Notes under the pieces: generated by a model
What the model was told of the DNA's origin: nothing
Database searches by the model: none
The model's input: only the letters and a program-made list of their open reading frames with translations
Program-made: the position numbers and the translations under genes
NCBI GenBank assembly: GCA_944320995.1
Contig: CALUJQ010000007.1
Span: 1 to 64,000, forward strand
From: an uncultured Barnesiella sp.
Lineage (GTDB): Bacteria; Bacteroidota; Bacteroidia; Bacteroidales; Barnesiellaceae
DNA: 64,000 nt
Direction of reading: 5' to 3'
In this document: positions 48,230 through 49,645 of the stretch, piece after piece
How the letters are laid out: each line of letters opens with the position of its first letter
How positions within the stretch are numbered: the first letter of the stretch is position 1

Positions 48230-48280
48230 AACCGGAGGCCGCCGGGAAACCGGGCGAAAAGCGTTGCCCCCGTAAACAAG

Positions 48281-48314
48281 GAGTGCCGAAAAGTGAAAAA
48301 TCGGCACTCTTTTT
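48281..48314 (+). terminator. Rho-independent terminator ending the early operon
   Basis: GAGTGCCGA pairs perfectly with TCGGCACTC around 11 bases, then five T. The gap from 48230 also holds CGGGCGAAAAGCGTT (48251-48265), the same 15 bases as 37281-37295 at the prophage left end. Confidence 0.92.
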
Positions 48315-48337
48315 ATGAAAAACGGGTGAAAATCAAT

Positions 48338-48349: not shown

Positions 48350-48616
48350 ATGGGCAAAGGGAGAGACAAAGAGTTGATCAGGCTGAGGGACGAGGCGCTG
48401 TGCCGTCGTTACTACTACTGGACCGAGGTGCAACGGTTGCGGTTCGACGACGCGCTGCGCATTCTCTCGGAGCGGGAGTTCTTCATCTCCGAGGAGCGCA
48501 TCATGGCCATTATCCGTCGCAAGTCCCGCGAGGGGACCGACAAGGATTTCAAGCCCCTGCCCAAAGTGAAAGTCCCCCGGCTGACGGCCTCCCAGCTCGA
48601 ACTGTTCAAGGTATAG
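48350..48616 (+). CDS. Small phage protein, possible regulator
   Basis: An 88-residue, strongly charged helical protein (LIRLRDEALCRRYYYWTEVQRLRFDDALRIL) with a helix-turn-helix-like stretch (SEREFFISEERIMAIIRRK) and a proline-rich tail. It has its own promoter after the early terminator, in the position where Mu places the middle regulator Mor. A regulatory role is inferred from position only. Confidence 0.65.
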   Translation: MGKGRDKELIRLRDEALCRRYYYWTEVQRLRFDDALRILSEREFFISEERIMAIIRRKSREGTDKDFKPLPKVKVPRLTASQLELFKV

Positions 48617-48622
48617 CGATGA

Positions 48623-48708
48623 GCCAACCCCGTGGCATTGCTGTAATGGCATGCCGGTTCTTTACTTATAGACTTAGCGACGAGAAGTGGCACACCGTTA
48701 TTTTTTTT
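48623..48708 (+). repeat. First, partial copy of the RNA element before the KilA-N gene
   Basis: CCAACCCCGTG (48624-48634), GCTGTAATGGC (48640-48650), CTTAGCGACGAGAAGTGG (48673-48690) and a T8 run (48701-48708) repeat in the same order in the second copy at 48839-48923. The matching blocks are near-exact and the spacers differ. Confidence 0.7.
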
Positions 48709-48754
48709 GTTGAAATGTATGGTCTTTGAAAAATAATTCGTATGTTTGCGGTGC

Positions 48755-48923
48755 TCTGAGATAACAACTACTGGACAGCGAGTCTGTCCGATGCATCGCA
48801 TACGGGCATTTTTTATGCCTTGCAAGATACGACGGCATCCAACCCCGTGCCTGCGCTGTAATGGCGTTGGCAAGTCCAGTAGTTATGGCTTAGAGCGACG
48901 GGAAGTGGACGCCGTCTTTTTTT
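48755..48923 (+). ncRNA. Candidate structured RNA upstream of the KilA-N gene
   Basis: No protein fits the 339-base gap 48617-48955. TATGTTTG (48741-48748) would start a transcript near 48755. AACTACTGGAC (48766-48776) pairs perfectly with GTCCAGTAGTT (48874-48884), closing a domain with an inner hairpin GGCAT-TTTTT-ATGCC. The 3' end is a terminator: GACGG (48897-48901) pairs with CCGTC (48912-48916), followed by T7. The KilA-N start is 32 bases further on. It may be a trans-acting small RNA or an attenuating leader. I do not recognise it as a named family. Confidence 0.65.
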
Positions 48924-48955
48924 CTGTCCGCACTGCTCAAAAAATAACTACAATT

Positions 48956-49645
48956 ATGCGCAAGAATCAAGAGAACAAGGTCCTGCGCCTTGAAATGGTG
49001 GAAGTGAACCAAAGTCGCTTCGCCGCAGAAATCCTCAGCGGAAACGCAAGTATCAACCTTACACAGATGTCGCAGCCATTTGGCAGGTCGTTTAGACCCG
49101 GTAACTGGTTAAAGACAGAAGAAGCCCGGCGTTATATAGACGCTATTGCCGTGGCTACAAATAGAGCCACGGCTGATTTAGTGGAGATTAGACAAGGGGG
49201 AAGCCCGGAGAATCAAGGAACATGGTGCAAAGACTACCGCATCGCCTTGCGTTTCGCGCAATGGCTCAGCCCGGAATTCAGCGTCATGGTGGACGAGGCG
49301 ATACTGCGCCTGCTGTCGGGGAAACGCATAGGAGTATCCCGCCATCGCCGTTTGCAACCGAAAGACCGGGACGAGGTTTTGAAGGCGTTTTTTGCGGAGT
49401 TGCCCCAATGGGTGACGTTGAACGATGAGCGCGAGGTGGCCGAGTTTTTCGGCGTGAGCCGCCACCATGTGCACGAGGTGCTGATGGGCCGCCGCACGGG
49501 CTATGCCGTACTGGCCGCGTTGACCTCGCACGGGAGCGAGAACCGGAAGCGGGGAATCCGCCGCCCGGATCTGAGTCCGGAGGCGACAGCCCGGAAAACC
49601 CTGCAACTGGCTTTGGATTTCGCGAACGAAACGAAGGAGGGTTGA
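48956..49645 (+). CDS. KilA-N domain protein
   Basis: A 229-residue protein. The KilA-N domain (about 10-125) shows ASINLTQMSQPFGRSFRPGNWLKTEEARRYI and WCKDYRIALRFAQWLSPEFSVMVDE. A second part (about 140-200) holds a helix-turn-helix-like EREVAEFFGVSRHHVHEVL. KilA-N proteins are phage DNA-binding regulators or antirepressors. The start ATG 48956 follows the terminator of the upstream RNA; upstream in-frame codons fall inside that RNA. Confidence 0.85.
   Translation: MRKNQENKVLRLEMVEVNQSRFAAEILSGNASINLTQMSQPFGRSFRPGNWLKTEEARRYIDAIAVATNRATADLVEIRQGGSPENQGTWCKDYRIALRFAQWLSPEFSVMVDEAILRLLSGKRIGVSRHRRLQPKDRDEVLKAFFAELPQWVTLNDEREVAEFFGVSRHHVHEVLMGRRTGYAVLAALTSHGSENRKRGIRRPDLSPEATARKTLQLALDFANETKEG

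Follow-up and report, generated by a model that had tools for sequence, protein, structure and literature searches.

A leader RNA with the layout of a C4-type antisense module precedes a KilA-N gene in a Bacteroidota prophage

What does the long untranslated stretch in front of a prophage KilA-N gene encode, and why does part of it occur twice? The window analysed here, 64,000 nucleotides of contig CALUJQ010000007.1 from an uncultured Barnesiella sp., carries around this stretch a prophage that looks Mu-like, with a DUF3164 protein, an AAA/HTH protein and a tail morphogenesis protein. The gap in question separates a small early gene, whose stop codon lies at 48616, from the ATG of a gene encoding a 229 aa protein with a KilA-N domain (48956-49645; Pfam PF04383, E 7.6e-14), a probable antirepressor. 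The KilA-N reading frame is open upstream as far as a TTG at 48746; its homologues start at the equivalent of 48956. All features of the leader and its gene lie on the + strand. Further upstream, past the DUF3164 gene and before the small gene that follows it, a strong inverted repeat (GAGTGCCGA..TCGGCACTC, ~48275-48315) flanked by A/T runs is probably a terminator, and the weak LhrC match obtained there in a relaxed-threshold Rfam scan was dismissed as chance.

The first-pass annotation had described the gap as a structured RNA with a duplicated 3′ half, and the building blocks on which this description rested are all present. The blocks CCAACCCCGTG (48624 and 48839), GCTGTAATGGC (48640 and 48855), CTTAG..CGACG-GAAGTGG and the T-runs follow each other in the same order in both copies, and the repeats between the copies include stretches of 27 nt at 85% (D2) and 15 nt at 93% identity (D4). 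An 11-bp perfect stem (48766-48776 with 48874-48884) was recovered as an inverted repeat and is in fact longer than first described, being extended by CTTAGAGC/GCTCTGAG. The terminator likewise holds; its stem is formed by GACGGCAUCCA..CCCGU and ACGGG..UGGACGCCGUC, and this last stem and its T-run end at 48923, 32 nt short of the KilA-N ATG at 48956. The duplication itself stands, but it is not one of a 3′ half: by reading, copy 1 retains 15 of the 18 outer-stem pairs, and since most of the closing stem is thus kept, the duplicated unit is the whole RNA core without its 5′ partner.

The leader begins with a -7 promoter element of the Bacteroidota TAnnTTTG type (TATGTTTG, 48741-48748), upstream of which we saw no convincing -33 element in the window sequence; most homologues also have a TTTG box ahead of the leader. 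The last base of the box is included in a stem, P0, whose 5′ strand (GCGGTGC, 48748-48754) pairs with GCATCGC at 48793-48799. This heptamer covaries with its partner ~40 nt downstream (20 elements, 0/20000 permutations); the RNA start is expected a few bases after the box and part of P0 may sit upstream of it. Next comes A (48753-48776), composed of a1 (GCTCTGAG, 48753-48760) and b1 (AACTACTGGAC, 48766-48776), the 5′ partner of an antisense stretch B. Two hairpins follow: H1 (GGACAG..CTGTCC, 48773-48789), apparent from the sequence and from constrained folds and found in homologues, and H2 (GGCATTTTTTATGCC, 48805-48819), which has a T-rich loop and is the most conserved section of the 5′ half of the leader. 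Copy 2 of the C4-like core (48825-48926), as delimited with our covariance model R1, then combines an outer stem P1, a hairpin P2, the antisense stretch B and the terminator. The 5′ strand of P1 (GACGGCATCCA plus CCCGT, 48831-48848) shows covariation; P2 (48849-48871) has a near-invariant loop, CTGTAATGG, at 48856-48864; B (48874-48896) consists of b′ (GTCCAGTAGTTAT, 48874-48886) and a′ (CTTAGAGC, 48889-48896); and the 3′ strand of P1 (ACGGG..TGGACGCCGTC) forms together with the T-run at 48917-48923 an intrinsic terminator (48898-48923). Directly upstream of the ATG lies C (48935-48951), with a2 (GCTC, 48935-48938) and b2 (ATAACTAC, 48944-48951). In the window C is a direct repeat of A and the complement of B. 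Going beyond the first-pass annotation, we find a leader RNA that is antisense to the start region of its own gene, arranged as in c4 of phage P1.

Is this an isolated curiosity or a family? The 333-nt leader folds with a z-score of -2.8. Rfam 15 gave no match in the window, nothing meaningful at a relaxed threshold, and left the element unmatched in the homologous loci; retron and ribozyme identities were dropped for the same lack of an Rfam match. When 393 genomes of the order were searched by blastn with the leader, four real relatives came up; blastn against named phages and plasmids found no match. Because tblastn with the KilA-N protein gave no confirmed relatives in viral and genome collections, homologues were sought by RNA motif, and the pattern matched 13 viral and 20 genome contigs. 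Three of these matches, on Poribacteria, Bacillota and Gastranaerophilales contigs (L028, L037 and L041), were without a model match and were set aside as chance. The remaining homologues share the order TTTG box, A, first hairpin, T-rich hairpin GGGCATTTTTTATGCCC, core, T-run, C and ATG, with the T-run following the outer stem in nearly all of them. R1 was built from 25 elements, including copy 2 of the window and leaving out copy 1; it scores copy 2 at 86.5 bits (E 1.7e-16) and copy 1 at 64.7 bits (E 2.6e-11), and it has matches in 11 of the 393 genomes when the host genome is counted. Of the five elements that a second-round model, R2, finds with confidence in the host genome, two lie in the window and three on contig C13. 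Tannerella forsythia is among the relatives, and one in Larkinella extends the family beyond Bacteroidales. The leader (48741-48955) is a member of an RNA family spread over phages and prophages of Bacteroidota, mostly in front of Bro-N or KilA-N genes, which are of antirepressor type. On one of the viral contigs (L015, 3906-3983) we also observed an Rfam RT-17 RNA match exactly at the gathering score.

The structure of the core is well defined over the 25 elements: an outer stem P1 of 13 + 5 pairs and a hairpin P2 of 7 pairs, a fold that RNAalifold recovers unaided. Its covariation score is 0.61, compared with 0.19 when shuffled. Two-sided changes occur in 15 of the 25 core pairs, namely in 9 of the 13 outer pairs of P1, whose five inner pairs always form, and in 6 of the 7 pairs of P2. 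Over both stems we counted 149 compensatory two-sided cells against 55 in shuffles, and 90% of the cells are paired compared with 35-47% in slid controls. Strong covariation across the 25 elements, together with conserved relatives upstream of other KilA-N and Bro-N genes, supports the initial proposal of an attenuator or trans-acting RNA that acts on KilA-N and the lytic decision. The accompanying proposal, that the shared blocks mark a binding site, fares less well. Most blocks belong to the outer stem or to the part that closes P2 and need no protein site to account for them; possible protein sites are left only in the YUGUAAUGG loop of the hairpin and in the AAG bulge.

The stretch B, located between P2 and the 3′ strand of P1, is complementary to both A and C in nearly every full element, the few members without a good C being L125, L126 and L132. 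Exchanging partners between loci destroys both pairings alike: over 25 elements the B:A duplex averages -29.65 kcal/mol with its own partner and -15.24 kcal/mol with a swapped one, and the corresponding values for B:C are -17.25 and -10.93 kcal/mol (0/20000 permutations in each case). The same holds for 13 held-out elements that had been found by the covariance model only, in which B:A ranks first in 13/13 (0/20000) and B:C gives 1/20000. When C was shuffled within its locus, 15 of 24 elements reached 0.01 or better. In the window itself the duplexes of copy 2 amount to -31.4 (B2:A2) and -15.4 (B2:C2), the latter pairing (8 + 4 bp) being marginal, since 19% of shuffled targets pair equally well and it ranks 6 of 25; with a shuffle value of 0.19 for the window alone, the assignment of its own C leans on the family.

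How fast this pairing code can change is illustrated by contig C13 of the host, where three paralogous modules with proteins 91-99% identical carry three different, internally matched codes (a1/a′/a2: GCGTAAC/GTTACGC/GCGTAAC, GCTGTAC/GTACAGC/GCTGTAa and GCACTAC/GTAGTGC/GCACTAC). With the locus of a sister species (L124) this makes four different codes in which a1, a′ and a2 have changed together; one of these modules (L133) is mismatched at a2. Each C13 module precedes a 95-aa protein that has a hydrophobic stretch and no Pfam match, and the three elements (C13:24159, 31892 and 40995, within locus L135, G000:C13:23501-43400) lie near an amidase gene and an ORF that, by reading, is terminase-like. 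Two Prevotellaceae/Bacteroidaceae contigs (L038 and L039) have identical cores; in L038 the match has been lost at A and at the b target, which could reflect recombination, an orphaned module or an assembly error.

In the reading that we consider likely, 48741-48955 forms an antisense immunity module of the C4 type; it would keep the KilA-N gene silent, and competition of A:B with the terminator stem would probably add attenuation. Sequence statistics show the RNA structure, its conservation, the covariation of A, B and C and the gene context; from there we infer that the RNA is transcribed, acts in trans, blocks translation and attenuates, and that the KilA-N protein is an antirepressor. A single promoter would give rise to a leader RNA containing in this order A (a1b1), H1, H2, the core, C (a2b2) and the KilA-N start. 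The core would be closed by P1, followed by the T-run, and present B in its loop, and termination would yield a short antisense RNA. By pairing via B with C on read-through mRNA or on the mRNA of a superinfecting phage, this RNA would block translation of KilA-N in the lysogen. As long as B is free, P1 and the T-run should act as terminator with A held in a loop closed by P0, and antisense RNA bound to A would favour termination. Since A in cis is about as good a partner for B, and a nested fold cannot contain both A:B and P1, A:B is probably an antiterminator. Over 21 leaders the folds with P1 formed and those with A:B are nearly isoenergetic (means of -62.6 and -64.2), as expected of a switch, the difference of ~2 kcal/mol being within folding error and the calculation ignoring pseudoknots, one of which could hold both helices.

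These same energies could also be claimed for an attenuator acting in cis only, where a protein, translation or a metabolite sets the balance between the A:B antiterminator and the P1 terminator, and where the likeness of C to A is a by-product of a duplication of the leader start. Such an element should have a terminator with a T-run right before the gene, as is found, and two mutually exclusive, nearly isoenergetic nested folds; moreover, B:A is on average far stronger than B:C. We nevertheless think this explanation unlikely. It has no need for a fast-changing code common to three sites, B:C covaries with B throughout the family (0/20000; 1/20000 in the hold-outs) with C lying at the start codon, and orphan cores lacking A or C persist structurally intact. 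The fast-changing triple of A, B and C is left unexplained if the leader is taken to bind a protein, KilA-N or another phage protein, which would recognize the loop YUGUAAUGG or the AAG bulge and autoregulate translation or termination. The near invariance of the P2 loop and of the bulge near GGGAAGUGG is what such a site would predict, but the same core stands before Bro-N, KilA-N, pRha and unrelated 95-aa proteins, so that the downstream protein is not the common ligand, and we regard this reading as very improbable.

Least credible of all, and in our view extremely unlikely, is an element that functions as DNA, be it a set of operator repeats or an insertion remnant. It would account for the direct repetition of A in C and for the overlap of P0 with the promoter. 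Against it stand the compensatory changes in the stems P1 and P2, G-U pairs among them, which fit an RNA, as do the T-run after the stem and the strand-specific order of the parts relative to the gene.

The antisense module that we favour has an obvious counterpart in phage P1, where C4 silences ant (PMC5320573, PMC8201110, PMC8546580). There C4 acts on its target mRNA through the a′ and b′ loops, the second of which covers part of the ribosome-binding site (same references). In P1 and P7, processing by RNase P at the outer stem's 5′ end leaves an RNA of ~77 nt (cited in PMC5320573). The annotation of the phage P1 record gives the immI order as a1, b1, the 77-nt C4, a2, b2, icd and ant, the antirepressor operon being icd-ant with kilA nearby. 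The window and more than 20 homologues share with C4 of P1/P7 (RF01695; a1b1 targets RF03163) the succession of promoter, a1b1, antisense RNA, a2b2 and an antirepressor-type gene. They also share a two-part antisense, a′ plus b′, that is complementary to the gene start region and changes with its target (at the level of the family, the window alone being marginal), an outer stem around a hairpin and an unpaired a′, and a b site adjoining the translation start. However, the Rfam C4 model RF01695, which gives phage P1 a score of 68.8 bits, is without a match in the window (E<=10), in 11 homologous loci (gathering score), in 13 loci (E<=1) or in the host genome. RF03163 gave no match either, and R1 and R2 do not match phage P1. 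In the Bacteroidota family the conserved CCCC belongs to the 5′ strand and GGG to the 3′ strand, an arrangement opposite to that of phage P1; B/b′ is in an open stretch with no conserved third hairpin, whereas b′ of C4 sits in the loop of the P3 hairpin; the core carries a fused intrinsic terminator; orphan cores adjoin full modules; and the hosts belong to a different phylum, Bacteroidota. The model mismatch, reversed C and G strands, b′ outside a hairpin loop and built-in terminator together argue for C4-like working without membership in RF01695.

Antisense-driven transcription attenuation is familiar from the replication genes of plasmids pT181 and pIP501. Their leaders, like the one described here, contain alternative terminator and antiterminator structures that an antisense RNA could bias. 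In the present case the antisense and the mRNA would share their promoter and their (+) strand, the antisense not being counter-transcribed, and attenuation is proposed from energies only. Antirepressor genes are also controlled by other antisense RNAs such as sar of P22; there, as is proposed here, a small RNA keeps an antirepressor silent.

Copy 1 (48610-48708), at the 3′ end of the upstream early operon, has its own T-run and an antisense sequence, TTCTTTACTTATAGACTTAGC, that fits the targets of copy 2 poorly (-10.6 with A2, -4.7 with C2). By its pairing potential it is an orphan antisense core with a putative target different from that of copy 2. A small early ORF (46544) has a near-match to this antisense at its beginning; the match was within chance and was discarded. 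Genome-wide, matches to the expected target were no better than those of a control pattern; 61 pattern matches in the viral collection included none with a core, and a duplex scan of the window gave chance-level sites only. Orphan cores recur: in the sister species locus L124 one lies directly upstream of a full module, as in the window, and in L013 an insert resembling an orphan separates core and target. Such cores without A or C persist with their structure intact. It is conceivable, and we offer it tentatively, that the switch is self-reinforcing, the antisense binding A on nascent leaders, freeing B, forcing termination at P1 and so making more of itself while blocking C on escaped mRNAs, and that orphan cores (copy 1, the first core of L124 and the L013 insert) are directed against regulators of other phages, prophages thereby stacking cross-immunity RNAs with different codes.

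The genes downstream are varied. Pfam assigned 16 of the 30 proteins to Bro-N, three to KilA-N and one to Phage_pRha, two of these also having an ANT (KilAC antirepressor) domain; the other 10 had no Pfam match and no recognised regulator domain. Two of the proteins (L002:1629-2336 and L017:1817-2461) share their first 13 residues (MNKKESPAQAVNE) and continue as Bro-N in one case and KilA-N in the other. The RNA module, comprising the leader and first codons, hence appears to have been exchanged, or shuffled, between regulator genes.

Known C4 RNAs are listed for Proteobacteria and phages only (PMC2864571), and a literature search, with the supplementary tables of a large microbiome RNA survey (PMC8040213) outside its scope, found no description of the present family. 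C4-type superinfection immunity as such has already been described for Proteobacteria and phages, and what would be new here is a Bacteroidota family with a different core. A family with the C4 layout and another core in the dominant phylum of the human gut would mean that this type of control is far older than thought, or that it evolved twice. Because the sequence reveals the pairing codes, gut prophages could be sorted into predicted immunity groups, and these predictions could be tested directly.
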